Source of the DNA: Sclerodactyla briareus
Lineage: Eukaryota; Echinodermata; Holothuroidea; Dendrochirotida; Sclerodactylidae
Assembly (NCBI GenBank): GCA_026419785.1
Contig: JAODTK010004109.1
Location: 62,001-126,000 of the forward strand
DNA: 64,000 nt
Reading direction: 5' to 3'
This document shows, piece by piece, positions 15,301 to 59,655 of the stretch (the first letter of the stretch is position 1; the number at the start of each line of letters is the position of its first letter). Under the pieces are notes generated by a model. It was not told the origin of the DNA. It saw only the letters and a list, made by a program, of their open reading frames with translations, and made no database searches. The translations under genes and the position numbers were made by a program.

Positions 15301-16985
15301 TAGAGCCATAGGTAAAAATTAGAAAGGACAGGAAAGAAACCAGAGTAGCTCCCAAAATGCTAATTTGGCAAAAAGCGTTGAAAATGGAACAACTTCAGTC
15401 ACTGGTTTTGACAATAATATGGAGTAGAGATGATGTGTTATCTACTTAGACATCCAATGCCTGTGCTCATTGTGAATGCGAATGCTTCAGTTGTTACGTC
15501 AGTGATGTATTTGGTGGAATTTGTCTTCCTCCTTCTGCATTTCAGACAGTATAGTAGAGTTATCATGAGTCAATCAATATCACAAGTCGATCATTATCGC
15601 GAGTCGGGTCATTGTCGATAAAATCGATATCAGCAGTGTGTGCAGGGCATGCAAGAGTTGCAAGTAAACAGTGTGTTGATAATTCATCAAACTGAGTACA
15701 TTTTTTGAGAAGTTCTCTACCCTCTCACTAGAGAAAGCAAAATTTATGATTTTACCCAATGCTAAGGAGGTAATTCTGTAATAGGACTGATTACACACCT
15801 TTTCAAGGAGCCCGCCAATGAAGTAATGATTATTTCTCTGATTTCCCTTTGAAATTCTCAGGCCAAAAGAACAACTTTCATCAGGAAATATCTCATGTGG
15901 TCACTTTTGTTCATGTTCAGCAGCACATTGCACAACTCACCACAGTGATTGACTCATGATAAGTTACTGAGCTGTGAATTGTGACTGACTAAGGCATTCC
16001 CTTCTCAGTAATTATTCCATGGAAACATTACAAACTTTACAAACATGGCATGCGGAAAGAATGTGATCCAATTAATGCTGCTGCCAAATTCTGTATTTTG
16101 AATGGTGTTTAGTATAGAGAAAAAAAGAAGAAAATCTGTCATTCGTGAGGCGATTGACTCGCAATCACACCATTATAATACAGACAATATCATATCAGTA
16201 TTATTTATCCTGTTATAAGTCCAAGAATGAGCTGAAGTATTTTTCAACAGCAGTGAAAAAGACACAGGCAATGTTTCACAAGTATATGTTTGTGTTCCAT
16301 CGATAAAAACAACTCATTCACTCCGCTCCCAACAGGGGAAATGACCCAGTGCAGAATGTAACTGTAAAAGGACGTGTGTGTGGAAGGGGGGTGGGGAGGG
16401 TGCTTCCTAAACTTGATGGTTAAAGGATGTATCATTAAACACAATTTTTTCTTTTTAATCTTTCATTCAACTGCTAACCCACTTAACTTTTGGGTTATGC
16501 CGCATTCCTTTAGATGTGATGTCTTTATACTTTGACATCACCGAGAAATAAAGGTCAGACGTGATTGATGCGAATTAGAGTCGTAGGGCTTGTTGTTGGT
16601 TAGTGAGAGCAATCAGATCAGAGGGCAATTTAACCCCTTCTCAGTGGCCAGGATTAGGGTCAATATCAATCGATGTGTTAATGGGCATGTCAATTCGATA
16701 GCTTACGGGACGCCTGCATTCGAGGGATGGGGGTCTATTTGAAGCCAAGCTAATTGCTCACTCAGACTGGTGTTCTTTTTGAAGGTCGATCGAGCAGGGT
16801 TGGTTAAATATTGCAATCATTGCCGTGATGGTGGTGGGAGGAAGATGGTTTGAGGGTCAATGTAGGGTAAAGAGGTATGGGTAGAGGAGATGGGCCTGGT
16901 GGGTTTAGAGCAGCTACTAGCATGAACCCTTAAAGCCTTCACTGTCATTTTCCTGCCACATTGCTCCCTTTTTTTCTGTGTCTAG
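9392..16985. other. Large intron, about 7.6 kb
   Basis: Mostly unique AT-rich sequence. I found no further splice-flanked coding exon. It contains the G-rich minisatellite at 10907. Open frames around 10676-11035 on both strands are by-products of that minisatellite. Confidence 0.45.
10907..10975. repeat. G-rich 17-bp minisatellite
   Basis: Units of GGTGGGTGGGAGGGAGA begin at 10907, 10924 and 10941, with a fourth diverged copy. Three or more GGG runs per unit at short spacing make the plus strand a strong candidate for G-quadruplex formation. The overlapping Gly/Arg and Pro/His/Ser-rich open frames are translation artefacts of the repeat. Confidence 0.85.
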
Positions 16986-17145
16986 GAGCCAGGATTCGAT
17001 ATCGTCGATATCCGAGATGCGGAATACACTGACGACTCTGACATGGAGGCCGAACAGGATACCCCTAACTGGCAGGCAAGGTTGGACAAGACCATCATCA
17101 AAAAACTGAAGCCAAAGGAGGTCAAGAGCCAGGAAATCATAAATG
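16986..17145 (+). CDS. ARHGEF11/12-like: RGS-RhoGEF, acidic linker and start of DH domain
   Basis: A 160-bp exon after TTTTTCTGTGTCTAG and before GTGAGA. It is open without any indel. The first 26 residues are strongly acidic (EPGFDIVDIRDAEYTDDSDM and following), then come NWQARLDKTIIKKLKPKEVK and SQEIIN, ending in phase 1. The second half aligns with the conserved entry helix of the DH domain in ARHGEF11/12 (NWQ, LKP.E.K, RQEVINELF). In PDZ-RhoGEF an acidic stretch and a short switch just before DH are known to restrain exchange activity; the acidic run sits in the same place, so the same role is inferred. The split codon (G at the end here, AA at 25354) rebuilds the Glu of INELF, which ties this exon to the next. 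Confidence 0.93.
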
Positions 17146-17450
17146 GTGAGAAAACATCACTAGTGTCTGTCTGTCTGTCTGTGTATCCATCTATTGAGTG
17201 CAAGACATGCCCAACTGGCAGGTCAAGGTTGACAAGAACATCGTCAGAAAACTGTAGCCAAAGGAGGTCAAGAGCCAGGAAATCATAAATGGTGAGAAAA
17301 CATCACTAGTGTCTGTCTGTCTGTGTATCCATCTATTGAGTGCAAGACATGCCCAATTGGCAGGTTCAGGTTGATAAGACCACCATCAAAGAACTGAAGC
17401 CAAAGGAGGTCAGAGGCAGGAAATCATAAATGGTGAGAAAACATCACTAG

Positions 17451-17485
<35 letters not shown>

Positions 17486-17612
17486 GTATCCATCTATTGA
17501 GTGCAAGACATGCCCAACTGGCAGGTCAAGGTTGACAAGAACATCGTCAGAAAACTGTAGCCAAAGGAGGTCAAGAGCCAGGAAATCATAAATGGTGAGA
17601 AAACATCACTAG

Positions 17613-17652
<40 letters not shown>

Positions 17653-17760
17653 GAGTGCACACCATGCCCAAACTGTCAGTGCAAGGTGGACAAGGGCACT
17701 GTTAGGAAGCTCCAGCTAGGCTGCCTACAGCAGGAAATGATAAACAGTGAAAATATTTAA
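17055..17760 (+). repeat. Tandem array of the DH-entry exon end plus its splice site and a TCTG microsatellite
   Basis: The 3' part of the 16986 exon, its donor (AAATGGTGAG) and the following intron text (AAAACATCACTAGTGTCTG) recur with donor copies at about 17141, 17286, 17428 and 17590, then a degenerate copy to 17760. Units are about 142-162 bp. Length variation comes mainly from a (TCTG)n tract of different size in each unit, the longest near 17610-17652. Later copies still resemble the exon (NWQVKVDKNIVRKL), but a TAG replaces the Lys codon before PKEVK in two of them and another has frame changes, so only the first looks translatable. Each copy keeps a plausible 5' splice site, but I see no clear polypyrimidine-AG in front of the later ones. 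Confidence 0.9.
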
Positions 17761-20700
17761 TTCCAAACAAGAGCTGTCTTGTCTGAATATGAGAAAATTA
17801 TGCAAAATGTTCTCTTGTAGATTGAATTAAATATTATTATATGTGTACACTATGCGTTCATAGACCTGTCAAAATGTTGAGTGTTAGGAATTGTTTGTAA
17901 TCACGCGGTGTTGTTGTAGATGATGCAGAAAACCTTTTTTTAGAGGTTCTTGTAGAGACAGTCAAACCACAAATGGCTATTTGATGGCAACGCCCTACAA
18001 GCACTCAGGTCCAGTACTACCATATATATTGGATGTGTTACGTAGAAAATATCTACATTACATTGAGGCGATGTGTAAATTGATAAAAAGAGTAACAGGG
18101 ATGAATGCTGATTGTAAATCATACGAAGGAGCATCATCTTTCCATTTACCTAAGCTATTTGAGTTCTAGTACGGGATTAACACCGGCGTCTAGGTTCAAC
18201 CTCCGCATATTTTAATGATATTATAGTGCCGTATCAGCGTTCAAGTTCATTCTTCCTGTGCGGGTCGTAATTCACTGTTTAAGTTATCGTGTTGCTAATT
18301 AGGCGGGGCGGAACTTAATATTCCCTCGTTCAGTATTTTGCTTAATGCCGGTGCCAACTTAATGTGGCATTTGCGGGCGGACCCGTGATTATTGTAAACA
18401 CAATTTTACGCGACCTGTTATGGTTCACGAACGCTTACGGAGCCGTCTATTTGCCAGCCTCGGATCCATGAAATATTGTTGCAATCATTTAATGGCTGTA
18501 TGGATTGAGAGCAGTGTGCAGCTAGATGCCTTTCTCGTGTGGTGATTATACCCAATTTTTTCCGAGGCGTGAAACATTCCCAACAAGACTGGCAATTTTA
18601 TTTCTCAAGTGCCCATTCTTCTAAGATTGGAGTTGAGTGTGGCCATGTTAATTGAGACACCATGTCGCACATTTCCCATTTGGTTTAGTATGTGCGAATA
18701 TGCAATAGTCAACCTTTGAAGCAAATTCTTTACAAATAATTACATACATTCAAGTGTTTCCCCAGTGCGGGTTTGCATACTTCTACCACCATGCACGGAT
18801 GTGTAAACCTCTTATGCATACTCGATTAGCATACAAATGATATTAGTCCAGCGTAAATTCATGCGGTAATATTGCCAACGTTGACTTATCCAGTGCTCTC
18901 AACGGTCGTTATTTCTACGTTCCACTTTACCGAGGATGATTGATAGGCAACATTGTTTGGGTACGGATCAAAAGCGGCCATAATCCTCCCTGCTCCAACA
19001 GATGAAATATTGAAATTTTGATGATTTGAATCTGTGCCAATGTTATTTTATAGTGAGTACTACTCCACCTAGTCTAATCAACCAAATGGTATTGCCTATT
19101 TTTGAATAGCTTATTTCAGTTTCAATGTGCCTTGTGCAATTGTATACCCATTATTTTTTTTTGCATCATGACATCCTCTACAAGCACTGTCATGTAACTA
19201 TATATGTATAGTTTAACTGCAGCAATTTTCTAATGTTTGTGATAGTAAAAAAACAAAAACCAAAATAAAACTGCAAACCTTTTTGTATCCACCTAATACG
19301 CTTACTAACAATTTACTGCTGCCGCCCAGTGGTTTCCACCAAGTAATTTGCAAGATTTCACATTGTTGGAGATTACTACTCCCTGTATGTCCCCAAATCA
19401 ACTATAGGGAAAAAATAGGGCCCTGACCACTGGAGTGCTGCATCCATTTATCGATGGTTTATTTTTTTTTTATGCGATTTATGGCTACACATTAATTTCT
19501 TCAATGTCTGTTATCACAGCATCATATTCATCATTGGTTATGGGAAGTAGATATTCTATAGGGCTCTCAGATCAAAATTTTCTTCGGGGGTCTGCCTGGA
19601 CCTTAAAGTTGGCCAAGTGTTTTCAAGTAAAAAATATATCACTGATTAATCATGAATACATAGTAACTTGGAAAAAACAAATTCATCTGTGAAGTTATTA
19701 ACAGCAGGTTCAACATGAATTTCAGTCTTACAAAAAATTTTCACCTTCATTTTATGATGGAAGCGTTTTTTTTTTAAAATGTATTTCAGGGAGTTATCAT
19801 TAAGTGCTTCCAAATATTAAGCTTTGGATTGGGATGTTGAATCAGTATTGATAATTATAACTGCTCCAAAAATTAGATCGAAATGTGTTGTTGGTCAGAA
19901 GTGTCTTCTTCGTTGTTGTAAATTCACTCCTGTTCGAGCATCGAGTGCAAAGCTTCCCTAAAACTGGAACAAGGATGCTACTGATGTCGACATTCGATGC
20001 TATTATGATGAGTTATCGGACATTCACAACTAACCACTTTATGGGGTTGTTCTCTAAGCTTTCGACCTGCAAAGCATCCACTTTTCTCAACATGACACAT
20101 GACTTGGTTGTCTTGTCCTAAATGTCATCAGACTAATTGGAAACCGGGTTCCCCCGACCGTGCCACGTGGGCAAGTCGTGGGAGTGGAGCTGAAGGCGTG
20201 ATTTGTGCAGATGCGACACATATACATTATATGACCCATTGGCTGCGTGCATGTAGCCCGATGAAATGTGATCCCCGTTCTTCTGGCGTACCTGACACGC
20301 CCCCCCCAGCGCGTTGCCGTGGGGTAATGTTGCCCAAACGACGTCACGCGAGTAACGACCGCATTATTGTGGGAGACGGAGACAACAGCATTGTTTGTTC
20401 CACCTGTGCTCACACATATATCCACCAGTGAGCACCAGGGTTGTTGAGTTGTCTGTGGTATTCAGCATTGTACTGTGGTGTATCTGATGGGGTGGGGGGG
20501 GGGAGGGTCGTTTGTAATGGGAAATATGTGGAGTGCTCCCTCTGATAGAACGGGACAGGACAGACTGACAGCTACAGATGGGTTATAGAGGGGAAGTTAC
20601 TGAGGGTGCATGGGAAACAGAGATAAAGAGGGAAAGGGGATGAAGAATAGAAATGTCAGAAACAGACGAATGGGGTATTATGATCGCACCCATGAGAACA

Positions 20701-23700
20701 TCCCACGCTTGTTGTGCGGTGCCATAGACCTTCTCGCCAAATAGACTCTCGCAATGCATTGTGTGCTAGCTCATGGGATTAAAATTAGCCAATCTATGGG
20801 ATGGCTAAATAGGAATGTCAGCAGATAAAATTTATTTTTTGGCGATCGAGATAATAGCACCATGGTTTCAGGCAGATGGTGTATATTAAAGATTGTAAAA
20901 AATTATCAGAGGGCCAACATACTAAATTTTGAGAGATATGCACAGACAATGAGGAAAGATTAATTAAAGTTTTTCCAATACATGAACCACAAAGATGCCA
21001 CCCTGGTAGATCCAGATGCATCAAATCTTTCCCACAGTGCACCGCAGCATGCTATTGCGCGAAAGGTCGCTTGCCTCACTCGACTGCATGAACCTAGGAC
21101 AACAGTATTCTACTGGCCTCGATATAGGCTGGGTTCCTGGCAGCTGAACTCCTTTTTAGTGTATACACTTACAAAATACTGTTCAACCTTTATGTTGCCC
21201 ATTACCATTGTGTTAAAGCTCCAGGTCCTGGGAAAATTCCCCGTTTCAGTTCAAGTTTGAGGGCTTCCATTATGTGGGCCAGCCTGTTTTCAGGATGATA
21301 ATCTCTGTAGATGCTCTACACACCGAGGCTGCTGCCTATCGCCCTGTAAGATAATCTACTGACAAGTTGCTGCCCCGACTAGCGGTATTGAGGGGTTTCA
21401 ACCCTTGACAAAGGGCAATATGGTCAATTCTGTTTTATCCCAAAAAAACACACGTCTGACAGCGAATCAATGAGAATATCAATCACCTTTTGAAGGTTGT
21501 GGCTGATTTGAGTACAAAATCATGAGAAAGAAGGGAAATAGGGGAAAAAGACTGTCTAACAGAGAGCGTTTGTTCACTTGAAGTGAACAACAGGTGGTTG
21601 TGAAATCGACCTGGAAACAGTCGCACAGGAGCACATATATATATACTAATGAGGCATGAAAGGATGGGATATGGTGTGTTGATAGGTGGAAAAGCTGTGG
21701 AGTGTGTACATGTATACATCAGGGTCCAAAAGGAATTGTATTTGCATGTATTTTCCTTCAATAAAAATACTTGATATATGTGTCAATTGTTTTTTTTATC
21801 TTTAAGGGGGATTATACATGTAGACAGGGGTTTACATGTATCTTCAAATCAAAATCACTTGAAATTATGTGTCATATTATTTATAATCTTACCTGTATTT
21901 CTGCCAGCTTGCTGGATGGGTGTGAAATCTGCGCTAATGAAGAAATTAACAAAACCTGCGTAAGGGTATCTGGTGAAATATGTTCGAGAATCAATATCAT
22001 CGTTTTCAATTAATTGGAAATAATAAGTCAATATTCCAGCATCCTAAAACCCCCAAATTAGGGTTGATGGGTTTTTTCACATCCTCTTTCACCCTGTGTA
22101 GTTTGAATCAAATTTGTTACATGACCAATGACTTTAATTCATTTGATCGTCCTTGGTATTGTGTTGGATGATATTCTGAGCACTGTTCTCGAGGGGGGGG
22201 CTATGGTTGTGGAGATCTTTGGGATTCATGTACTCACAGGGATAGATTGTCCTATGCGAGTAATAGTAGAGACTACCCCGCCCACCCACCCAATAGATTG
22301 CAGATTCATTGTTGAGAGTAAAGAAGATTGGCTCTCAATTCTCCTCGGGACTCGGGGCGACAGTTGTGCCTTGACAGCGGGTGTAACTGATCGGAAAGTC
22401 GTCCTATTTAATTGGTTACGCCGCCTACTGACTGACGGGTCGATTCATGTAGCAGCCCTGCATGTGAAAAACATTAAAATCCCGGTAGAATTCAATTTCT
22501 CATCCCTCTCATGTTCGTACCTTTAGTTGAAAGGAATTATCTCTTGAAAATGTTGAAATTACCACCCACACACCATGGGAGAATCACCCAAAAACGGTTT
22601 CTCAGAGGCCGATATAAATATTGAACCGAAAAAACCCGAGGGCTTCGCTCATCATTCTTGTACCGTTGTTGTAAACAATGAAGACAGTTGTCTGGTCTTC
22701 GAGAGTAACTTAATGACTGATAGTGATCCCTACTTGTTTAGTATAAAAAACAAATCCAGTGATGGGGAGGAAATTTGAGCTTTAGTTAAGCTATTGTTGA
22801 TTCACGCGGTTAATTCAGTCATTGATTCAATTTGACCGGTCTATATATAAACTTTTGCCTTTTTTGCTGTCAAATGTATGCTCTCCTCTTCTCTCCACAA
22901 TGTTTTACCAATACTGCTTGGCTGCAATGTTCACAATTGACCCTGGGACATCGTGACCTCGTATAAAATTCGAAGGTAAAAAAGTTGGCTAATTGTGAAA
23001 ATGGCAAAATCCGTTCTCTCCTCACAGTATTATCCATAGCATGATATAACCTCCTGGAGTGTTATTACATTGTTTGGGTACGGCAGATTCACTAATAAAT
23101 GTTGAAAATTGGCAACTTCCTCCCTCTCCCACCCCACCTTCCTACAGAGTACCATAAGCTCAGTCTCCATTTGTAATATATGATGTGGTTAGGAATTTGG
23201 GATCCATATTATTGAAGGGGAGAATGAGCTCCTAGGTAAAAATGCTTCTCCTATGATTGATAAGATGTTGGTTTTGTCATCTCGCGAGCATGTAACAGAA
23301 AATCCGAGTCAGTGGCCATTTAGGGGGCAGAATAGTCAACTATCATTATCCTATGTCAATCTTCGTATCCATATGAAATATTGCCAGTGTGCCCTACAGC
23401 ACTTTAGTGCTTCCGTTTCTAATCTGCAAGAACATTCTGCAAATTATCTTATATTATTATCTTATTCTACTCCTTTGGGACATATGATATCATATATATG
23501 AAATGTAATGGAAGTCTTTTATCACTATCTATTCTTTGGTCCAATTGTTCTGTAAAAACTCCAATGGATGCCTCATCCCGCCAACATTGAGATTTGGAAA
23601 ACGTTGGGGTCTGGCAATTGATAGAAGCTCCTCATTTCACGTTCAAACTCGTTCAGAGTTCTGCTGTCAACAATCTGGAATGGTGCACAATTCAATCACT

Positions 23701-24059
23701 ATGGTAACCAGAAAAAAAAACAGGAATATTGATAATCCTCCCGTGTTACAACGTGGCTGATACTTCCTGGGTATGCTCCTCTTAAATACCATGTTTAAAT
23801 AGCACCAACAGTCCAAACAGAATCACTGGACATGCAATTCAAAGGTCGGCATTTAAATCGAAGGGAATGTGCTTCTTATGTTTGTTAATAAGTTGGTAAC
23901 ATCGTTAAATGCTGTCTTACATCTGCTGCTACAACTTGGTAATTGGATGGTCGTCAAAGCTGTCTGATCTTAGACCTGTGTTTTTTCCCTTATTACAACT
24001 AACCTGCTACAACTTGTTTAAATAACATGGCATGTTTACTGTTCAGCTCGTCCAGGTAA
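17761..24059. other. Intron inside the DH domain, first part
   Basis: No further DH exon is expected here, because the codon split at 17145 is completed at 25354. A CpG-richer block at about 20130-20430 is open on both strands over 110 codons, and a 132-codon plus frame lies at 22128-22526; neither resembles a known protein. The interval is otherwise AT-rich unique sequence. Confidence 0.5.
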
Positions 24060-25160
24060 ATCTGTTTGCCCAAGATCTGCAGTTCCGTACCACCATCTCT
24101 TTATGTGGCATTTACAACTACAATGATGTCGTGGGTTGTCACATCCCCTGCGGCCTTTTTGTAGCAATGGCATTGGCAATAACTTCTCAACTTGGTGGGC
24201 ATATTAAGTTGTCAAATGATTGCCAATACTTCTACTGAAGATATAAGGTCGGACGATGGCAGTTGAGCTTATGGTTGGCTATAAAAACGATATTCTTCCA
24301 AGAATTTAATGTAGTCATCGCCTCGCACTCATCACATAACCAGATGGCTTTCCAATTTAGAATATTCGGATCCTATAAGATTTTTTTTAAACATTCATCT
24401 GATATATGTCCAGAAACTAATAGGCCTGGGAACGATCAATTTAGCACAATACAGTGCTCACCCTAGTTGCTCTGTATCCGCCAGATATGACCCAGATATT
24501 ACAGAACATTACACCTTTACACAAACAGTCAAAGTGGTCAAAACAGGTATTTGCTATTCCAAGATATGCTTTAACATTATTTGATCTATTCAAACAACTA
24601 AGACTAGACACTTACATTGTCAGGGCACCTTGGCTTTCCCCACAGTCTGCAGTTCCATACCACTCGCTTTATGTGGCATTTACCACACATGTTCTGTTTA
24701 CACAATCCTGCTGACCCATTTTGAACAAATGGCTGGGCAATATCTCTCCACTTGTGGGATATTAAGTTGTCAAATGATTGCCAATACTCTACTGAAGCAT
24801 GGAAGTCGGAGATGTTCAGTTTGAGGTAATGAAGAAGTTTGTGTTGCTATAGACAACCATAGTTTTCTTCTCGATAATATCTGTGGTCATCGCCCACTCT
24901 CTCACAAATGAACAGCTGCTTCCGATTTAGATATCCGGATCCTTTCAATTTTTTTTTTTGATAGCCTTCATTAAATATTTGTCAAAATGAATAGGCTGGA
25001 AACAGTACTACAGTAAACTATGTATCCCCAAAATTGACCCCATTATACAAACCTTTGACAAAAAACAATCAAAAGTGTTTTATATACAAGGTTTTTGCTA
25101 TATGCTATATTGATGTGGTAATATAAACTAAGAACTTACTCTTCAGCACACTTCGATGTG
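24060..25160. repeat. Direct duplication of a unit of about 565 bp
   Basis: Text from about 24077 (GATCTGCAGTTCCGTACCAC, TTTATGTGGCATTTAC, ATTAAGTTGTCAAATGATTG, GTAGTCATCGCC, GGATCCT) recurs in the same order from about 24642. Copies differ by point changes and indels and the intervening text is also related, so two old tandem copies are present. On the minus strand the copies encode a Cys/His-spaced word (CGKCHIKRVVWNCRLWGKPR in the second), which might be a remnant of a transposase or gag-type zinc motif. Frames are broken and no family can be named. Confidence 0.75.
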
Positions 25161-25353
25161 TCAGTGGGATCTTTATTTATTTATTCTGTTATTCAATCTC
25201 CTTCCAAAACACAGAGAAAAATACTATAAAATATTGCAGCAGAATAAACGTTATGAGGCAAATAAAGAACTTGAAAATCCAGTTAAAAGTCACCAATATT
25301 CGCTCATGCTATTAGAGCAGCAGGCTTTAATCCCCTCCATTCTATTCTCTCAG

Positions 25354-25579
25354 AACTTTTCCACACGGGCGACCCATTTAGGAACAGAAGGTGCTAGACA
25401 AGGTCTTCTATCACAGCCGATGCTCAGCGAGGGCGGCCTCCCCAAGAAACGCGATCATGCACCTCTTCCCCAACCTCCCCGAACTCATCGAGGAACACAG
25501 CATACTGAAACGCCAGGAGGAAGAAGGCAAGAGTACGAGCCAGGTCGTACGAGATGTGGGAAACCTCTTACTAGAGAGG
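25354..25579 (+). CDS. ARHGEF11/12-like: RGS-RhoGEF, DH domain exon 2
   Basis: A 226-bp exon after TTCTATTCTCTCAG and before GTGAGT. With the G carried from 17145 it begins ELFHT, continues through a KVLDKVFYH word near 25391-25415, a PMLSEGGLPK word in a different frame, and then HLFPNLPELIEEHSILKRQ and SQVVRDVGNLLLER to the donor. These match the DH helices INELFYTERAHVRTLKVLDQVFY and the FSNLEDILQLH segment of ARHGEF11/12. At least three to four frame changes occur: around 25368-25390, and a compensating pair around 25413-25447. The last 43 codons are intact. The density of small indels in an otherwise well-conserved exon suggests assembly error, though decay cannot be excluded. Confidence 0.9.
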
Positions 25580-26521
25580 GTGAGTAGAGGTGTTAAATCC
25601 AAACATGGAGGAAGCTCGGAAATCCACGCCATCCTCTCAACTCTCCAAGGGATTCTAGGAGGAGGGAAGTTATTTAACAGGATATTGTATGAATGCATTG
25701 TCATAAAGCATGCATGGATACCATTCCTTGGGTCATATTACAAGTGCCAACACATTGTCCTTAACCAACTGTTTATCCACATGGTAGACTCTGTCGTCAT
25801 TGGCTTTCAACAGACACAGTTTTTCTAGCATGTTATTTCATGTCCCAAGCAGACATCGCAATGTTGTCCTGCCACATCATTGACACTCACCGCTCTTTTA
25901 CAAGCACATTTTCCAAAATGAAAAAAAAAAATTCCACCTAATTAATGTAGTAATAACATTTTCCTGTCAAGGTAAATAAGCCAGAATAATCCAGGCCTAC
26001 CATTCAAATAAATCCACTTGTAATTGATTGTGTAAGAAAAAAAAATAAAACCCTGTGCTTTTAGGTGCCCAGCATACGGCTTCTATTCATAGTAGAGGTT
26101 GGTTGCAAAACGACTTCAAATTGGCCCCTTATTCTTACTTGTTTTGAATTGTGGCCATTTATTTATTTAGAACTTGTCTGTTTATACTGGTGGAAAGGAA
26201 CCTGCTAGTTTAAAATGGCCTAATTATGAGTTTTAAATGTCTGACGTACTGAGCCAGCTTACCATTAAGCCCCCCCCCCCTCCCCCAAAAAAAAAAAAAA
26301 AAAAGAGAGAAAAATACCCAACTGGTCCCTGGAATTTCCAACTATGATGTATTTTGTCACGCGACGTCCCTGTCTCCAGGTATGACAATACGTAGGTCAA
26401 TGTGAATTGTGGTTACTCCCAGGTTAGGTTTCCATTCCAACCAGTTAATCTGCCTCTTCCACATTGAATGCTCCTCTTTCATTGGAGATGATCTACTCTC
26501 TCTCTCTTCTCCTTTCCTCAA
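25580..26521. other. Intron, about 0.9 kb
   Basis: AT-rich sequence with A-runs and a C10/A-run junction near 26271-26304. No coding content recognised. Confidence 0.5.
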
Positions 26522-26647
26522 TTTGACGGCGAGGCCGTAGAGGATGAAGGAGGTTTTCCCCGCCGACTTCTGCATCACCAGAGGCACTGCTCTGGAGATG
26601 AACTCAAGTCCAAGCAGCGCAGGAGACCAGCTCATCCACTTCATACG
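26522..26647 (+). CDS. ARHGEF11/12-like: RGS-RhoGEF, DH domain exon 3
   Basis: Recognised by homology: FDGEAVE, then ERMKEVFPADFCITRGTALE, then ELKSKQRR, then DQLIHFIR, read across two to three frames. This is the counterpart of the ARHGEF11/12 segment with FSGPGEEKLKHAA, FCSNQPFALEMIKSRQKKDS and FQTFV. The donor is GTCCGT after a two-base partial codon (CG), completed at 28130 as Arg. The upstream pyrimidine tract (TCTTCTCCTTTCCTC) is followed by AA rather than AG immediately before TTTGAC, so the expected acceptor is missing; the first AG lies inside the exon at about 26532. Either the acceptor was changed by a base error or splicing now uses the internal AG and drops several residues. Confidence 0.82.
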
Positions 26648-28129
26648 GTCCGTTTATGGAGCTCTTCATAAGACTTGTACTCTCTGAGCACACATATGTG
26701 CAGTGCCAGAAATATATCAGTTCCGTTTATTTTATTTCTTGTGGTAACTGTAATTTCTGGGAGCAATATAAAAAGCTAATTAATTTACAGGTAAACCCTG
26801 GTCTTGCTCAATAGTTTTTATAACCAACTGTTATTTTTCGATTACTTCACATGCTCATCTAACCTAATGGCAACCTGCAAACCACCCTCCTAATATTCCA
26901 TCAAGACCTGCCATCTCCTTTTACCACAGAGTCCTGGTTTGCCACCTACCAATCGCTCCCTCATGCTGTCAGCCAAACCGTCTGGTTTTAACAAAGACTT
27001 AGTCATTTTCATTTTTGGATATTACACTATACTGCCCCAAATCTCTCCAAATTGCTAAAGCCTTTTTCACAAGCAGCTTGTCCACGGAATTTGAATAGTT
27101 GTGAGTGTACTGGTACCGTGTTTCAACTTGATCTTATGAGAGGCGTCTTCAAACTCCAACTATTCATTATCGTGCAATGCCCTCCATTCTGAGTGGTCAA
27201 TTCTCTATCTCTAAACCTTACTGTTATTTTTTTTTATGACAGGCAATTGGTCCGAGTCCTCAGGCGATTGAATAGTTACTCATTTTGTTGCAATTGATAT
27301 GTTGGAACTAACACTGTACGAGTTTTCCTTTCCTCTCATTGGTGCTAATAGAATATTCAGGAATATGGGCATCTTCCTTTAGATTCCAGGTTGTGGATTA
27401 GACAATTCGCAGTACTAATTTGAGACTGCTATTTATTCATAACCAGACTTTCCCTAAACAAATTCAGCTAAATAACGACTTGGCTTCACTTCAGGCCTCC
27501 CTTCTGTTTTCAGAATGAATTTTAGTCTCAAATGCTTATTCCTTGATTCAGGTCTCACTACAGCAAGTTCTTCCTGAATAAAGGCTGTGAGCACCGCTAG
27601 TTTAAATGAGTGGTTCCAACGGAGCTCGATTTCCCTCCTAATTTGTCAGGATTCAGGAGGTTAGCACTCAGATGTGATTCTGGACCTTGTTCTTCGTATG
27701 TGTGAGCATTGTATTAATCTGATGACCCTCGAAAGGGTACAACACTTGTTAAAATTTCAGATTACTTTGGGACCAACCTACATTCTGGGAACCCACTTGA
27801 TCCATTATGGCCATTGACTACGATTGCCTCATTAACTCGGTCCTAAATACTACCTGAGGAATTCTGTTTCTGCTATTAGCCAGTCGAAATAGTGGAAAAA
27901 CGGGCGTTCCTCCCCCAATTGACCAATCACCACCGTTTTGGCTCAGGACTTGAGTCAGGACGTCAGCTTTACCAGATGGTATCATCTCTCTGCCCTCCTC
28001 AACTCTTTTCCGCTTCTGTTTTATTTGTGGCGATTTTCCATCTCTGATGACCTCCCAGAGCTCACATTCACTCAAATTTCAAAATTGATGAGTATTGGCT
28101 TATTTCAACTTGTTTTTCTCTAATACCAG
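26648..28129. other. Intron, about 1.5 kb
   Basis: AT-rich, no exon recognised. It is bounded by DH exons whose split codon (CG before, A after) rejoins as Arg. Confidence 0.6.
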
Positions 28130-28248
28130 AAGCCGAGCAGATCCCCTGTGTCGGCCGTCTCCCGCTGAGAGGATCATCTCACAACCCAGATGCGAGCGGC
28201 TCACCCAATATCCCCTCTTCATCCAGCAGCTTCTAAAGTATACCCAAT
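28130..28248 (+). CDS. ARHGEF11/12-like: RGS-RhoGEF, DH domain exon 4 (QRLTKYPL helix)
   Basis: The exon follows TTGTTTTTCTCTAATACCAG. It reads SRADPLCR, then a short frame-disturbed stretch, then ERLTQYPLFIQQLLKYTQ before GTGAGT. This is the most diagnostic DH element: the family has NPLCRRLQL, then IIPTQMQRLTKYPLLL and a KYTE word, forming the long helix that contacts the Rho switch regions. The frame through the middle (about 28145-28190) carries small length errors relative to the family. The final codon is split in phase 1. The next exon can join in that phase if one A in its leading AAA run is surplus. Confidence 0.9.
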
Positions 28249-29095
28249 GTGAGTAAGCCTCTGCCCCCACATTGTACAAACACCCTAACCCCATGCACCC
28301 CTGGTACATCTCCTGTTCCATTGTCTCTCTCCCCTCCTCCCCCTGCGAGAATGTATCAACTCACATGCATCGGGCTTACCGAAACCCACTCGTCAGCGCC
28401 AGCAGCTCGTAAAGTATACCCAATGTGAGTAGCCTCTGACCCCGCCGCCTGGAATCAACCCCCCCCATGCACCCCTGGTACATCTCCTGTGCCATTGTCC
28501 TACCCCCTGATAGAAATTGTATCACCTCAAGATGCAGCGGCCTTACCAAATACCCACTCTTCATCCAGCAGCTCCTCAATACTACCAATGGTAGTAGCCT
28601 CTTACCCCAGCATGGATTCACCCTAACCCCATGCAACCCCTGGTACATCCCCTGTGCCATTGTCTCCCCCTGAGAGAAATTTGTTCTCAATTCAGATGCA
28701 GCGTTTTACCAAATACCCACTCTTCATCCAGCAGCTCCTAAAGTAAACCCAATGTAGAAGGTCTGACCCTACATGGATCACCCTCCCCCCATGCCCCCTT
28801 GGCCTCCCTGTGCCATTGTCCCCCCCTGAAGAATTGTATAAACTCAAGATCAGCGGCTTACCAAATACCCACTCTTCATTCAGCAGCTCCTAAATAACCA
28901 CCCAACATTTTAGCCTCTGACCTCCACATGATCACCCTCCCCCTGCACCCCTGGATACCGCCCCGTTTGCCATGTCTCCCTGAGAGACATTGTATCAACT
29001 CAGATGCAGCGGCCTTACCAACATCCCCTCCCCATCGAGAAATTCCTGAAGTATATTCAACGTAGCTCTGACGCCAGCATGATTTCTCAATGTTC
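28141..29095 (+). repeat. Tandem array of the QRLTKYPL exon with its donor site, about six copies
   Basis: Centres of the exon-like word (CTCTTCATCCAGCAGCTCCT) lie near 28217, 28393, 28561, 28722, 28872 and 29029, a period of about 150-176 bp. Each unit holds an exon-like block (AACTCAGATGCAGCGGCTTA to TACCCAATGTGAGTAG), intron text with CCCCATGCACCCCTGGTACA, then the next unit. The first copy fits the reading of the gene best, but the fourth also keeps ACCAAATACCCACTCTTCATCC intact. Copies differ mostly by single-base and short indels. No complete acceptor precedes the later copies, so they are probably not spliced, but retained donors could cause aberrant splicing. An assembly stutter over a noisy locus is another explanation. 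Confidence 0.88.
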
Positions 29096-29379
29096 AGGTT
29101 GTAAGGAAGTACAGCTGGAACGAGTCATTTGGTCAGCTTGCATAGTTCTTGTCAGTTGGCTTTTAGCCACATAGTTTTTACGCTGGAATATTTTTGATTC
29201 TCTCGGTTCCCGTAGTAGTCGTGGTTGGGATGGTACAACCCTGAACGATTGGCCTTCTCTTTTCCGACTAGTGCTCCGATGGAATCTGAGCCCTAGTTGG
29301 AAAATCGAATGCCAGTTTGTCGCCAGTGCTCATCCGCGTTCAATTCTGAGAGTTTCCTTGATTGGTGTTAAACAGCTTC

Positions 29380-29830
29380 CTCAAATCTATCCGATCTGGT
29401 CATATGAATAATGATAATGAAGTATCGCCTACACCTGAATGCTCCAGGAACAAGATCCTTACCTCACGGGCACCAGTTTTTCCACATGCAGGGAAGCCCA
29501 TACTGAGGACTACACCGCAGATTTCCGGGTTCCACATATGCTCTCGTTAAACATCTTCCTCACGTCAATTCGATCTGTCATACGAGTGATAAAATGTAAA
29601 TGGTCGATCATTCCTGAAGCGTTGCTACTACTTTCGAGCTGTGCTGCGGTAACCCGCACAAAAAGAGTGCTAACACCATATACAGTAGGTCTTAATCCTC
29701 ACCACTCATTTAGCAAGGACCCAGACTCTCTAACCTCACAGGGTAACCTATTCCACATACGGGGAGCCATAACTAAGAATACACTCGCATTACAGATTTA
29801 TTAGAGTCCCACATATGCTTTGTTCTGTGA
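29380..29830. repeat. Two diverged copies of a roughly 170-300 bp repeat, probably transposon-derived
   Basis: Text near 29385-29545 (TCAAATCTATCCGATCTGGT, CTCACGGGCACCAGTTTTTC, CACATGCAGGGAAGCCCATA, CAGATTTCCG, CCACATATGCT) is echoed near 29563-29820 (TCAATTCGATCTGTCATACG, CTCACAGGGTAACCTATTCC, CACATACGGGGAGCCATAAC, CAGATTTATTAGAG, CCACATATGCT). The similarity and relaxed frames on both strands suggest old mobile-element fragments, but no named motif was recognised. Confidence 0.5.
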
Positions 29831-29990
29831 GCTGGGGTTGTCTCCAGAAATTGTTGAAAATATGGGTGCAACTTGTGCACTGTGTATGGGTGCTTCTTGA
29901 TAACAAAAGGACTTGAAGAAAAAAAAGCTAATTCACTGTTTTTAAAAAGTTGCCACATTTTAAAATGACTTTCATTTCTGGACCCAACAG

Positions 29991-30149
29991 CCAAACGAAG
30001 AGAATCAGAGGTTGGAGAGGGCCTTACAGTGCTGTAAGGACCTGCTGGATCACGAATCAGGCCGTGATGGGAGGCCCGACAACAGCATCGCCTCGTTGAA
30101 AATCAAGTCCAAGACGGAGGAGCTCACACCTTACGACAGGAGCAGGGAG
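29991..30149 (+). CDS. ARHGEF11/12-like: RGS-RhoGEF, DH-PH junction exon
   Basis: After TTTCTGGACCCAACAG the best reading is NEENQRLERALQCCKDLLDH, then NQAVM, then EARQQHRLVENQVQ in another frame, and near the donor LTPYDRSRE in yet another, before GTGGGG. The family counterpart is the last DH helix and DH-PH linker (a CRQLLNYVNQAVKEAE-like helix followed by RLEEYQRRLDLS). The Val of VNQAV needs bases that are missing between GATCAC and AATCAG (about 30054). At least three frame changes are needed overall. The alternative open frame DNSIASLKIKSKTEEL also reads like protein, so the exact residue sequence after NQAV is uncertain. Confidence 0.82.
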
Positions 30150-31243
30150 GTGGGGAGGGGAACGAGGGGGTAGGGATGGGAGGGGGTGGAGGGAGGAACG
30201 GAGGACCACCAGGGGGAACCCCGATAGGTAAGTGGGAGGCGCACAGACCCTACTTCTCAAATACCTTTTCTTTTATCGTTTGCACCCCCATCTACAACCA
30301 TCTCCTGGTTGACCGTACAGGCAGGTCTTCACAGTTGAAGGCAAGCTATAACTCGCTCTACTCTACACCCGTTGCCTAACATTTAATGCGATTTTGTATA
30401 CCTTGACGGTTGAAAAGGATGTGTGCCTGATAGAGCTTGACAAGACTGAATCAGAGCGCATGTCCATCCACAAAACGTGAAGAAAACCACTGGGCCATAG
30501 CACATCCTAGGAGAGCCATCATGTACTCGCCATTGAATTCAAATTTGAAGGCCTGCAGTATCTCTCGCTCTTGTGTTAGGGGACTTGAATATATGTGCGA
30601 GGCACGCCAAATTTGAAGCTGTACATGAACCATACTATTTGTTTGTTCTAGGGACTACGTTGGTACCAGCAATAGCGTTGGCCCATGTTTTTGCAACTAA
30701 ACTGGACCAAAATTTGACACCCCAACATGTACTATGTATTTGCCCAGGCAAAAAAATAGGAAACAGTAGAAAATAGAAAGCTCTTGGCACCCCTCCCTAA
30801 GTCTGACAAGCTCTCGGCCCACTCTAGGGTGATAGAGACCATTTTGACCAGCAGATGTTCAGAATAATAACACTGAATGGGTATCCTATAAAATATATCT
30901 GTAATCTAGCCCCTGCTGCTTTGTTTTCTCTGAAATAAATGCGTCATGCTCAGAGAATATAAAATGCTGGTGTGGCGCCAGTGGGTATCAGTTCTGAGAT
31001 TTTTGCGGGACTCGATACCCCACATGTTGACAAAGCCAGAATGCTCCATTGACCGTATTGATTATCCAAGGGTTTATGGCAGCAGCTAGTTTACACGATT
31101 GTCGTGCCACACATAAAATACCTACCCTTGACCTCTGGGTGCGACAAGTCTAATTGATCATTGGGAATTGATCGCTAACCCCATCCCCATTCTACTACAA
31201 ATTGTGTTTGTTATATTGTCATCCTCTCAATTTATCCTCGCAG
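30150..31243. other. Intron, about 1.1 kb
   Basis: It begins with a G-rich, purine-rich stretch (GTGGGGAGGGGAACGAGGGG and following, to about 30215). No further coding content recognised. Confidence 0.5.
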
Positions 31244-31322
31244 GTCAACACCAGCCAAATCTTTCACAAGTTACTATACGACAGTCCTATAACGTGGAAG
31301 CTCAGTCGCAACAAAACTCTAG
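31244..31322 (+). CDS. ARHGEF11/12-like: RGS-RhoGEF, PH domain exon 1
   Basis: A 79-bp exon with clean borders (TTTATCCTCGCAG before, GTAAGC after) and no indel. It reads VNTSQIFHKLLYDSPITWKL then SRNKTL, ending in phase 1. The pattern is the first PH strands of the family (LTKRKMIHEGPLVWKVNRDK, then TI), where the linker Lys and the WK pair start strand beta-1. The split codon G/AT with the next exon gives Asp, as in the TIDL of LARG. Confidence 0.95.
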
Positions 31323-31654
31323 GTAAGCCACGGCCATTTGATCCTTTTTCACCTGGCATAAATTATTGACAAGTGTAGTCACCTTTTGGAAGTTGGGGAG
31401 GTCCGAAGGAGCAGAGAGCAATAATCACTGTGGGCGAAAGAAGTTGTATGTGGGGGCCAACTTGAATGTCAGGGAGGGTGGTCATGACCCCGATCCCCAT
31501 TGGTTGTGCCTTTGTCCTAATTTAGATTGTATTGGTCTGTATTCTCTTAAAAAAAACTAGATTGGAAGAATAATATGATGTGAAATCAAAATAGTCAGAT
31601 GGATGTGGTGGTGTGAAATTAGGACAGAAATCTGTCTAGGGAGTTGATATTAGG

Positions 31655-31743
31655 TGGGTGGAGGGAGGTAACTATGGTGGGTGTGGGGTGGGGGAGGGGT
31701 GGGGAAGGGGTTGGGGAGGGTTGGGGAGAAGGGGTGGAGGGGG
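31655..31743 (+). repeat. G-rich imperfect repeat with quadruplex potential
   Basis: Runs of three to six G separated by T, A or GT (GGTGTGGGGTGGGGGAGGGG, then GTTGGGGAGGGTTGGGGAGA) extend over about 90 bp in the 31323-31989 intron. The run spacing meets the usual G-quadruplex pattern on the sense strand of the RhoGEF transcript. Open frames here are artefacts of the repeat. Confidence 0.7.
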
Positions 31744-31989
31744 AATGCCATGGGCATCTGGGGATAGCTGGATTCTGTGAACCTGGTGAAGGATTCCCAG
31801 ATTATTCAAAGTGTGCACCCATGACGTGCTTGGCAAGTATCCCGCATGAAGAAGGAAAGAGAGGTCATGGTGGCTGGTCGGCAAGATGAAGACCGGCAGA
31901 GGTCCTGCATGGTGACTTTGCTGCTGAATCTGTAGACTGTACACTTATTCAGTCAGCCAATCAAAATTCTTCATGTCTATCTCACACAG

Positions 31990-32204
31990 ATATGCACGCC
32001 ATGTTACTGGAAGAATACGTCGTCCTGCTGCAGAAGCAAGACGACAAGTTTATCCTCAAGTTCCATTCCACATCAAACATCGCCCCCATCACTGACCGAG
32101 ACCAGAACCCTACTCCCCAACAACAGCGCAGAAACAACCCACAGTCCTATCACATCTATCATCAAACTCAGTACTTACTACGCTATTCCGAGAAGTAGCC
32201 ACAA
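31990..32204 (+). CDS. ARHGEF11/12-like: RGS-RhoGEF, PH domain exon 2
   Basis: A 215-bp exon after TCTATCTCACACAG and before GTGAGT. It reads DMHAMLLEEYVVLL, QKQDDKFILKFHSTSNIAPI and TDRDQN, then after a one-base slip near 32108 continues YSPTTAQKQPTVLSHLSSNS and VLTTLFREVAT to the donor. This matches the PH core of LARG/p115 (LLLEDILVLLQKQDDRLVL and the FSPVIKLSTVLVRQVAT region), including the near-invariant QKQDD loop. The second half looks longer than in vertebrates, with a Ser/Thr/Pro-rich insertion before REVAT. The split codon A/GT continues into 33083. Confidence 0.95.
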
Positions 32205-32221
32205 GTGAGTAGACCACAGAA

Positions 32222-32500
32222 TGATATAATAATATCCGCATGCTCATAGAAGGCTTTCCATGATCGTAGACATTCTCAAAGCGGCTTACAGTATTACCCG
32301 ATCGGGGGGAATCAGGCACGCTCTCGACAATCCCAGAGAGAACAAGTTGCTGCCAGGTCCCCGATTATCACCTGGGTTGGGTGAGCACCTCGCCCAAGGG
32401 GACACCGGAAAACGGTGATCGGTCAATGGGATTCGCACTCGCAACCTTTGATCACCAGTCCAAGCTCTACCAACCAAGCTAATACGAATTACTTCCAAGC
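32222..32500 (-). mobile_element. tRNA-derived SINE, antisense in the PH intron
   Basis: Read on the minus strand from about 32500, the element starts with a tRNA-like head: an A-box word TAGCTTGGTTGGTAGAGC and, about 30 bases later, a B-box-like GAGTGCGAATCCC. The body passes through TTTTCCGGTGTCCCCTTGGG, and the tail reads TGTAAGCCGCTTTGAGAATG then AT-rich ATTATTATATCATT. The head word (CCAAGCTAATACGA on the plus strand) is duplicated just upstream. Box A/B spacing, a unique body and an AT-rich tail are the normal plan of a Pol III SINE. The tail ends only about 17 bases beyond the 5' splice site at 32205. Confidence 0.82.
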
Positions 32501-33082
32501 TAATACGATCTCCAGTTTTGTGGTATCAACAATTTCCCAAACTTATCAGGGTTGGTAGCCAACCTGTAGATCAGGCTAGACACCAGAAGATGATTCTCCA
32601 TTCAGGTGAAATCTGAGAATCACAGACAATCAATCTGAGAGACAGACAGGTCCTGTGAATGAGGGGGGAAAAAATGGTGGTACTCTGTGAATCCGTAGGC
32701 AACCGTTCCATAATGAATGGTGAACGTGAACAGACTTGGGACGCCCAACATGACTGCGTTAAATTTACGAAAGGGGTGAGAGTTCTATATCATTATGTGT
32801 TGTCTATGTACCCTTCATTATAAATCATTCGTTAGTTATTGCGGCCTTAATTTTTTTTTTATGTATTCCCTTTAATTCGATCCCAAGGGAATTGATCACC
32901 AGTCTCATTGCTATTTGTTTCCCTTGTAGAATCTTTCCATCGTCAATGATTCACCTTGTTGAGTATACAACCAGTTTGTCCATCTGTCTGTCTTCCCGTC
33001 ATCTGTCTGTTGTTGAATGTTCATGCTGTGTAGCAGGTTGTTCCTACATCAAGTTAGTATTCTTTTTCAACCAACTCTGCAG
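32501..33082. other. Rest of the PH intron
   Basis: No coding content recognised. It ends in a pyrimidine-rich tract before CTCTGCAG at 33082. Confidence 0.5.
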
Positions 33083-33178
33083 GTAATAAAGCCTTTTCCT
33101 GATCAGCACTTCACAGCAGGGACCACAGATCTATGAGCTCCAGGCGCCATCCTCAAACGAGAAGAAAGTCTGGATGGA
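33083..33178 (+). CDS. ARHGEF11/12-like: RGS-RhoGEF, PH domain exon 3 (end of PH)
   Basis: After CCAACTCTGCAG the exon reads SNKAFF (with the codon split from 32204), loses one T in TTTT (about 33095), then reads LISTSQQGPQIYELQAPSSN and EKKVWM to a GTAATA donor. The family has DNKAFFVISMS, GAQIYELVAQTVSEK and VWQDL; GPQIYEL and the aromatic VW are the last PH strand and the C-terminal helix. Without the missing T the frame stops at TGA. A single-base loss in a T run is a typical sequencing error. The exon ends with GA, completed at 33817 as Asp. Confidence 0.93.
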
Positions 33179-33816
33179 GTAATAAGAGTGCCCAGTGATA
33201 ATGCATGACCAAACGGAGAAGAAGAAACTCTGGGCGGGGGGTAAACCCTATGAACCTCCCACAGAGGCCAGAATACCACCACAACCTCGACAAGCAGGAA
33301 AACAACAAGTAAGGTCTTAGGAGGGCACTGGTAGTGATTGGGGGGGGGACGAAACCACCCCCCCTCTGGAGGTTCTGAATACACAAGGCTGAAACCTCTC
33401 CAAATACCTGAATAACAACACAACACCACAAAACAACAAAGCGAAAAGGAGTAACACTTAAACTATAGAAGCAATTTAGGATACAATCCTGAAGTTGATA
33501 ATTCAGCTTGATTGTGTTTTGGTACTTTTTCAAAAGAAGGCATTTGGCACCTGGCTTCACTAATGGTACTGAATGGATTACACAGCCTACATAATGTTTT
33601 TATATCAGACAAAAGTAGCGTGACCAGTAGCTGTGCCCTTTCCGCACTGGATCGATCTGGTGTGAATGTGCTGATAACACAGTTAGCTGTCACAGAACGT
33701 GGTTAGAAGGCAGGGCTTACTATTCTGATTGAAGTAGCTGTATCATTAGGTTGTGTGATTGTGTGTGGATTTTATCATTCATTCCTTCTGACTGCTCGCT
33801 CTATCGTTGCTTCCAG
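33179..33816. other. Intron, about 0.6 kb
   Basis: Open minus-strand frames of 108 and 135 codons (33103-33560) overlap each other in different frames and show no recognisable protein; treated as chance. Purine-rich, with a G8 run near 33340. Confidence 0.5.
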
Positions 33817-33968
33817 CAGTGTGAACGCTTCTGTTGAGCGGGCCTGAGAGGAGCAAGGTGGTCACAAAGACCCCAGAGGTAGTCACCCAAGTGCCATTCA
33901 CTGCCCCTACTTTGGTAGAGGAACAAGGAGATGCTGCCACACTGCTGAGAAAGGCCTTGAAGGGTGAG
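33817..33968 (+). CDS. ARHGEF11/12-like: RGS-RhoGEF, first exon after the PH domain
   Basis: After CTATCGTTGCTTCCAG the exon completes the Asp codon and reads SVNASVERA. A one-base shift follows near 33842, then ERSKVVTKTPEVVTQVPFTA and PTLVEEQGDAATLLRKALKG before GTGAGT. The start extends the C-terminal PH helix (family: DLICRMAASVKEQ). The rest is a Thr/Val/Glu-rich segment without a known domain, as expected for the poorly conserved tail. A tandem array copying its 3' half follows. Confidence 0.8.
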
Positions 33969-34600
33969 GTGAGTACCAAGGAGATGAAGGGGGGGGCGGG
34001 TTGTATGAGGGCAGGTGATAGTGGGGGGGTAAAGGCGGGGATGTAGTCATTCAAGTGCTATTCACTGTCTCTCCTGTAGTTGAGGTGATGAGAGCAGATG
34101 TACCACTGCAAAAAAGCCTTGGATGAGATGTGCACCCAGGGGCATGAGAGGGGGGGTGAGTATGAGGGCAGGGTGATGGTGGGGGTGGAAGGTGGAGAAT
34201 ATAGTTATTCAAGTATATTGATGTATTTGAGATACAAGGAAATGCTGCCACACTGCTGAGAAAGGCCTTGAAGGGTGAGGTGAGTACCAAGGAGATGAAG
34301 GGGGGGGCGGGTTGTATGAGGGCAGGGTGTGGTGGAGGGGTGAAAGGTGGGGGATATAATAACTCAAGTGCCATTCACTGCCCCATACTTGGTGTAGAGG
34401 AACAAAGATGCTGCACCCTGCTAGATACCCAGGGGTTAGAGGTGGTTGTTGGTGATAGGATTATGGAGCAGGGGAACGATAGGTATGGGGATGAAACTAG
34501 TAGTTATCACCCGAGTGTCATTCACTGCCCCTCCCATGGCAAAGGAGGGAAAGGAGATGCTGCCTTTTGGATGAATGCAGCCTCCTCTCGGGGAAGGTAG
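33878..34600 (+). repeat. Tandem array of the post-PH exon end with donor site, about five copies
   Basis: The word GTAGTCACCCAAGTGCCATT starts at 33878 and recurs in diverged form near 34045, 34202, 34359 and 34501, a period of about 142-167 bp. Exon-like ends (GAGAAAGGCCTTGAAGGGTG followed by AGGTGAGTACCAAGGAGATG) are nearly identical at 33968 and 34279, 311 bp apart, so the array also has a two-unit higher-order pattern. Intron-like G-rich text (GGGGGGGCGGGTTGTATGAG) is included in each unit. The later copies have donors but no obvious acceptors. Confidence 0.88.
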
Positions 34601-40900: not shown

Positions 40901-41689
40901 GTGAAGCGCCTAAAAGCCCAACATCTACTCACATGAAAATGCTTCAAATTACCTGCAATAACAAACGTTTGCCGTTATTATTAGCTTTTGTTTCTTCAAG
41001 GGTATTGTTCTTTCTATCCATAGAATACATGTGGGACGCCTGTAAAATGATAGATAGATAGGAGCAGGATTTGTTAGAAACTATTCATTCCAGATACAAC
41101 CAAATATTGTGATTGTTTGTGAAATTAACATTCTCCTTTGGTTAGGTGGTTAGAGGGGAACTCTCCACTATCGATTCCATCACCCATATGTAGAAAAGTA
41201 ACTGTCCCTCTAATGTAGGCACGTATTCAATGTCTGTTTTGGGACGGACATTCTCTGTCATCGCGGTGAATGGAACTAGAACGTTATCTCTCACCTCGAA
41301 TTTGGGCAATTCTCTCCTAGACCTGATAGATATCGAACCGTCGAAGGGGTTTCAGAGAGTACAGAAGGGGCCTCCCTCCTATGTTAGCCGACAGTTTGTT
41401 GCTCATTTTTGAGGGCACCCCCCCAGCCTCTGCTGCTAAAGACCCCCCTCTCTACCCGAACCCCCACCCACACACGTTAGTACTACTGTCTTTGTTTGCC
41501 GATTTTATCCAACTTTTGCTTTCTGTAAACCACCTGGGCAGACCAACCACCACCTTCGTTCTTTTTGCTGTCATCAATCGCTTGTTACAAAACTTTTGTT
41601 TTTCGTAGCCTTTTATTCACGAGCCTCCCTTCTAAACCTATGCCGTGTTCTATTACCATCGTCTTGATTGGGAATGTCTGTCACATTTG

Positions 41690-42235
41690 CACATAACTCA
41701 TAATCAACTTGCAACTGGGAATTAATTGAGTCGCCTCAACATTCATATAACTTGATTCGAATATGGCAAACAACTAAATTCAAAATTTGATGGTCAATAT
41801 CAGAACAACCCCCATAAATAGGAAAATTTAGAGCAAGGATTTGGGAAGGGACATTTCAAATGTTCTAGAATTTGTGCAATTTGGGTCAATTTAGAACTAT
41901 GTAAACCATAATCATTTAGAGTACCAGGAGAGCGAGCACATTTTGCATGACTGGTATGTAGTGTGCAAATTTTGCACAACTCATATCAACTTGCAACTGG
42001 GAATTATTTGAGTCGCCTGAACATTCACAACTTGATTCGAATATGGCAAACAACTAATTCAAAATTTGATGGTCAATATCAGAACAACCCCATAAATAGG
42101 AAAATTTAGAGCAAGGATTTGGGAATGAGAACATTTTAATTGTGCAATTGGGGTCAAGATGGAACTGTGCGAACCATAATTACTTGGAGTACAGGAGAGC
42201 GAGCACTTTTCGAATGAAAGTTATGTAGTGGCAAA
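41690..42235. repeat. Direct duplication, unit about 282 bp
   Basis: CAACTTGCAACTGGGAATTA begins at 41705 and 41987. The following text (GAGTCGCCT.AACATTCA, CTTGATTCGAATATGGCAAA, AAATTTGATGGTCAATATCA, ATAAATAGGAAAATTTAGAG, GGAGAGCGAGCAC-like ends) is shared over most of the unit. Copies differ by scattered substitutions and indels. Confidence 0.88.
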
Positions 42236-59652: not shown

Positions 59653-59655
59653 TTA

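Follow-up and report, generated by a model that had tools for sequence, protein, structure and literature searches.

Why are three exons of one gene each followed by tandem copies of their own 3' ends? The question is raised by a 64-kb window of contig JAODTK010004109.1 of the holothuroid Sclerodactyla briareus (the window being the whole stretch that was analysed, numbered from its first letter), in which the reported region, 16986-34600, carries three such arrays within a RhoGEF gene. A preliminary description of this DNA had found the arrangement unexpected and suggested a common mechanism operating at the ends of exons. The answer that we consider probable is that the arrays are minisatellites of the kind called mirages, products of ordinary tandem duplication that would be tolerated since the first donor of each exon still works.

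Tandem repeat units at exon/intron boundaries

The three exons and their arrays are as follows.

16986-17145, plus strand: exon entering the DH domain (EPGFDIVDIRDAEY...NWQARLDKTIIKKLKPKEVKSQEIIN); identity with human LARG at 13 of 27 residues, without a frameshift
17146-17760, plus strand: array 1, the remainder of unit 1 and four copies, each with the exon 3' half, a donor and about 60 bp of intron
28130-28248, plus strand: DH exon (RLTQYPLFIQQLLKYTQ) with the donor GTGAGT at 28249; unit 1 of array 2 is formed by the exon's 3' half
28249-29085 (end approximate), plus strand: array 2, the remainder of unit 1 and five copies, each with the exon 3' half and about 70 bp of intron
33825-33968, plus strand: candidate post-PH exon with an open frame (...SKVVTKTPEVVTQVPFTAPTLVEEQGDAATLLRKALKGE); unit 1 of array 3 is formed by the exon's 3' end
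33969-34640, plus strand: array 3, the remainder of unit 1 and about four partial copies, from Tandem Repeats Finder (TRF), self-BLAST and unit alignment

TRF scored array 1 at 592-830 (three rows, 17067-17647), array 2 at 679 (28337-29021) and array 3 at 355-452 (33923-34413), and in a self-BLAST of the window the best E-values of the three (3e-143, 4e-122 and 2e-44, respectively) are among the strongest for near-direct repeats. Because both methods detect the arrays and 20 first-order Markov shuffles of the window yielded no TRF row with a period of at least 40 and a score of at least 50, the arrays are genuine as sequence, beyond chance. Their units are about 125-190 bp long, and within the assembly (319,486,128 bases, 3171 contigs) the DNA of array 1 matches this locus alone (4 matches, 1 scored candidate). 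The 5' part of the exon is absent from the copies, which all lie downstream of their exon; for arrays 1 and 2 the exon 5' half is single and upstream of the array. We take the repeat unit to span an exon/intron boundary, firmly so for arrays 1 and 2, where the exon is identified by homology, and less firmly for array 3, where it is marked by an open frame and a donor; the earlier claim that three exon 3' ends are tandemly copied in one RhoGEF gene holds to the same degree.

Array 1 is the most informative. Its exon is preceded by an AG at 16984-16985, has its donor at 17146 and contributes its 3' half as unit 1. The repeat starts partway along the exon, at AACTGGCAGG; it takes in the donor (ATG followed by GTGAGAA) and some 60 bp of the intron, where a TGTC tract differs in length among units. 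Donors lie at 17146, 17292, 17433 and 17595, with spacings of 146, 141 and 162. Units 2 and 4 are identical over all 91 exon columns and have a TAG stop in common; unit 3, which carries a 1-base deletion, differs from both, and this is the pattern of unequal exchange or homogenisation. Unit 5 is decayed and ends near 17755 without a GTGAGAA donor. The turnover typical of tandem repeats, with homogenised units and a diverged edge unit, is thus present in array 1; it was not seen in array 2.

The copies of array 2 have, in their exon 3' part, a consensus of roughly LPLREIVSTQMQRLTKYPLFIQQLLKYTQ, and the two units that contain GTGAGT are the first two (28249 and 28425). The sole match to the RhoGEF profile in the locus lies within this array (window positions 28690-28761; 17.4 bits, below the cut-off), on a copy with a stop and not on the true exon, and is a trap for gene annotators.

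The five units of array 3, across 33870-34640, have a mean column identity of 62%; unit 3 is closest to unit 1 (80% over 218 columns), and units 2, 4 and 5 are partial. GTGAGT occurs at 33969, 34156, 34280 and 34617, that is, in four of the five units, at the aligned place in only two (units 1 and 3), and the later three all lie beyond stops. The preliminary description had put a 5' splice site in every unit; the counts are lower: four of the five units of array 1 have GTGAGA, two of the six in array 2 have GTGAGT (the other four lack it), and two of the five in array 3 have an aligned GTGAGT. The candidate exon itself has an open frame up to its donor (GAG followed by GTGAGT at 33969). No homologue of it was found, and it falls outside the alignment to an unverified LARG C-terminus. 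The nearest possible acceptor AG (33815-33819) leaves an in-frame TGA just behind it (33822-33824), so that either the 5' end of this exon is not settled or the sequence contains an error at this point. Counting on from the PH core, this would seem to be the second exon; it had been called the first.

The gene and its other exons

The gene that carries the three arrays appears, from its predicted translations, to be an RH-RhoGEF of the ARHGEF11/12/1 type. The top PDB matches of the exon translations (one query was partly joined by hand) were ARHGEF11 chains, followed by ARHGEF12 and 1, and the best matches were the DH-PH structures of these three proteins. In a frame-aware alignment to the DH-PH region of human LARG, a reference verified against 1txd, ordered exons extend over 17064-33178, and a final, weak piece follows at 35362. 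Upstream, weak ordered matches to an unverified LARG sequence may mark PDZ- and RGS-like exons (e.g. 4309-4486, 11833-12037 and 13403-13461). The exon of array 2 aligns to LARG with 20 of 38 residues identical and four or three frameshifts at frameshift penalties of 7 and 12, and with 15 of 38 identical and none at a penalty of 18. The remaining exons of the DH-PH region are these.

25346-25591 (ends approximate), plus strand: DH exon (KVLDKVFY...NLPELIEEHSILKR), without array; LARG alignment
26488-26651 (ends approximate), plus strand: DH exon (TALEM.LKSKQRR), without array; LARG alignment
29991-30106 (ends approximate), plus strand: DH-PH linker exon, without array; LARG alignment
31244-31322 (31255-31322 in one alignment), plus strand: PH exon, without array; LARG alignment
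31990-32206 (3' end approximate), plus strand: PH exon (MHAMLLEEYVVLLQKQDDKFILKFHS), without array; PDB match and LARG alignment
33083-33180, plus strand: PH exon core (LFLISTSQQGPQIYELQAPSSNEKKVWM), without array; LARG alignment, by eye perhaps extending to about 33312

That exons other than the three have no arrays, as noted before, is borne out at the sensitivity used: the sole further near-direct repeat listed in 16.9-35.9 kb, at 24065-25003, touches none of the exons found. It lies a short way upstream of a DH exon and consists of two 370 bp copies, 72% identical and separated by 570 bp.

The alignment also bears on the quality of the sequence. Its DH-PH pieces contain 25 frameshifts in 9 of 11 pieces at a penalty of 7, 12 in 6 of 9 at a penalty of 12 and 2 in 2 of 8 at a penalty of 18, a soft figure that hinges on the penalty, and no in-frame stops; the exon of array 1 has zero frameshifts at all three penalties. 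Three 18S copies (L025, L026 and L027) are 71-73% identical to one another and depart from their majority by 12-18%, in part because of alignment error; longer stretches, aligned more crudely, gave 60-72% identity. From the frameshifts and the divergent 18S copies it follows that the assembly comes close, in places, to the quality of raw reads, and exact copy numbers and divergences are soft because of it. We considered and rejected the idea that the whole gene is a pseudogene: the DH-PH indels come without in-frame stops, residues are conserved and the 18S copies are error-laden, so that assembly error fits better. The alignments to the unverified N- and C-terminal LARG sequence do contain a few stops.

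Origin and fate of the copies

We infer that each array began when replication slippage or unequal exchange duplicated in tandem a short segment reaching from mid-exon to about 60-100 bp into the next intron, and that further slippage, unequal exchange and local homogenisation would have brought it to several units. The exon would retain its own acceptor and its first donor, which alone would be used, so that splicing would go on as before and the copies would be intronic. There they would gather stops, frameshifts and lost donors, presumably as neutral sequence that is tolerated and not selected. The unit structure, the start of the repeat in mid-exon and the broken frames of the copies are seen directly. 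The copies are most likely intronic and unused, because read-through to donor 2, 3 or 4 of array 1 meets a stop before donor 2, the exon 5' half is single and no strong acceptor was evident in the array units on inspection by eye.

Comparison with published mirages

Minisatellite-like tandem duplications of exon/intron boundaries, with 150-160 bp units that are 81-100% identical, have been described in amphioxus globin genes (PMC3087553). BflGb9 carries a 157 bp duplicate of the exon 2 3' boundary, and BflGb6 has units of 150-160 bp, 6 and 3 of them in two haplotypes; reverse transcription PCR suggested regular splicing (PMC3087553). The same paper cites earlier Adh3 cases, which were named mirages, and proposes mirages as raw material for intron gain (PMC3087553), and PGBD5 and TnC are further cases in the available part of PMC3902484.

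The RhoGEF arrays resemble the amphioxus mirages (BflGb6, BflGb9, Adh3, TnC and PGBD5) in being tandem duplications that cross a boundary and keep splice signals in many units, and the globin examples also share the 150-160 bp units, the presence of several units and the partial homogenisation. In mirages many but not all units keep splice signals, and the same is found here: 4 of 5 units in array 1, 2 of 6 in array 2 and 4 of 5 in array 3 (2 aligned). As far as the assembled sequence can tell, the testable features of mirages are thus present, those of anatomy in the RhoGEF arrays generally and those of turnover in array 1 only. Unlike the amphioxus cases, the RhoGEF gene has three arrays, all on the donor side and known from the assembly alone. 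Given that the same structure and unit size have been published for amphioxus (PMC3087553; PMC3902484, in the part available), the arrays are not as unexpected as had been supposed and do not call for a shared exon-end mechanism. As a separate observation, the units of the three unrelated arrays (17055-34640) are mostly about 140-180 bp, near nucleosome length, and those of globin mirages are 150-160 bp; this may be coincidence.

A further published comparison is the AGGT model of intron gain by tandem genomic duplication. In the part of PMC3443670 available, it likewise involves tandem copies of gene segments with splice signals, but there an exonic duplication creates a new intron, whereas the RhoGEF copies most probably sit within an existing intron.

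Repeats elsewhere and the placement of the arrays

Tandem duplication is not confined to exon ends. Within the window, a 67 bp unit is repeated at 1-210 without an evident exon. At 1867-2342 lies an old tandem repeat with a unit of about 144 bp (65% identical) and a younger 53 bp repeat inside it, with no coding evident, and at 41686-42235 a 285 bp unit occurs twice (85% identical), again with no exon evident. The stretch 58053-60989, which resembles a mobile element, contains an inverted repeat of 1.1 kb (72%) and, at 59358-59953, a palindrome of 0.6 kb with CGATA/TATCG satellites. Beyond the window, 21 places with near-direct repeats were counted by eye in 152,293 bases from 23 other loci, among the pairs listed (at most 12 per locus; two loci had more); the copies are clearly separated in L024 and L031 and about 40-65 bp apart at one place each in L005 and L009. 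These loci are not a random sample, as four flank the window and most others are short contigs, and exons were not sought there; the background of near-direct repeats in them is high. One of them, at L005:3863-5376 on the minus strand, has proline-rich, repeat-coded open frames of 398 and 438 amino acids over a minisatellite. GC content is 0.38-0.55 within the window and 0.35-0.45 in the sampled loci.

The placement of the duplications was compared with random placement of six duplications (units of 67, 144, 150, 165, 155 and 285 bp) relative to 25 exons, 16 of them weakly supported. This permutation was framed after seeing the data, and it leaves out the separated repeat at 24065-25003, the CGATA-type satellites around 58-61 kb and the small array at 2205-2311, which was merged with 1867-2342. 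Over the whole window, p is 0.021 for at least three of six crossing any exon boundary and 0.004 for their crossing a donor; for the gene span the value for any boundary is 0.033; and in the region 16986-34600, the crossing of any boundary by all three arrays has p 0.003. The excess of duplications at exon boundaries is modest.

Alternative explanations

Several observations weigh against ordinary duplication with unused copies. In array 1, the TGTC tract and then AG dinucleotides precede the exon part of each copy, where a weak acceptor is possible. The noisy assembly may make arrays 2 and 3 look more diverged than they are, and the exact number of units there is unreliable. All three arrays of the region 16986-34600 are on the donor side, for which random placement gives 0.0005 (post hoc). 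Finally, 15 matches to the kinesin family on 6 contigs revealed no tandem exon copies in what was an insensitive search, a near-repeat scan of the kinesin stretches L029 and L030 (15,000 bases) found none, and the kinesin stretch L031 has two separated repeats only, neither overlapping its two kinesin matches. The kinesin result, insensitive as the search was, argues against exon mirages being very frequent; a RhoGEF profile search of the genome gave 6 matches, all below the cut-off, and both searches are too insensitive to settle prevalence.

The error-rich assembly raises the question of whether the units, or their number, arose from mis-assembled noisy long reads around exons that are really single-copy. 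The up to 25 frameshifts in the DH-PH exons (penalty 7) and the low pairwise identity of the three 18S copies would fit such an artefact, but random read errors do not create tandem copies that share derived changes, the cleanest array sits on the frameshift-free exon 16986-17145, and a similar amphioxus array was observed in two haplotypes. We regard an artefact as unlikely, because in array 1 units 2 and 4, but not unit 3, have a derived stop in common and the length of the TGTC tract is not constant among units. Exon duplication can yield mutually exclusive exons, and here, too, exon sequence is repeated in tandem. Nevertheless, we rejected mutually exclusive or alternative exons as a reading of the copies, which lack the exon 5' part and are mostly broken by stops or frameshifts. 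A role for the copies, whether as such exons or in the tuning of splicing by decoy 5' splice sites, is highly improbable: array 1 does offer four identical donors, but only the exon 3' part is duplicated, most units have stops or frameshifts, two of the three donor spacings in array 1 are not multiples of 3 and GTGAGT is missing from most units of array 2.

A process that targets exon 3' ends, for example through transcription-time breaks or R-loops at 5' splice sites, could also make duplications more frequent there. The position of every copy downstream of its exon would agree with it, as would the crossing of donors or of any boundary both by the three arrays and in the whole window; against this, the tests are post hoc and use mostly exons with weak support, the sampled sequence has many near-direct repeats where no exon is known, and the amphioxus duplications involve 5' as well as 3' boundaries. 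Because near-direct repeats are common elsewhere in the genome, a mechanism specific to this gene is not needed. The shared exon-end mechanism of the preliminary description is not supported, given the exon-free duplications in the window, the repeat places counted elsewhere and the modest boundary excess; a process aimed at exon ends is possible, not required, and in our judgement quite improbable. Mirage-type arrays made by ordinary tandem duplication remain the reading that we favour.

Implications

What may be new is the occurrence of three mirages in one gene, and perhaps the lineage; we do not suppose the published record of mirages to be limited to amphioxus. The GFP family, which in amphioxus comprises 16 GFP-like genes (PMC2679011), had no match in the present genome, nor did it in the control genomes. 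Searches for GH6, with equally silent controls, and for COX1, whose control responded in 8 of 14, likewise gave no match, and the 18S, judged by eye, looks unlike that of amphioxus. A gene with three mirages would be a good place to test the intron-gain proposal. One could go further and suggest, very tentatively and as something that we hold to be rather unlikely, that outside cephalochordates too, short tandem duplications preferentially and repeatedly hit the donor side within one gene, giving rise to repeated splice sites and possibly to new introns. The RhoGEF case bears on whether mirages are peculiar to cephalochordates or arise generally where tandem duplications abound in a genome.

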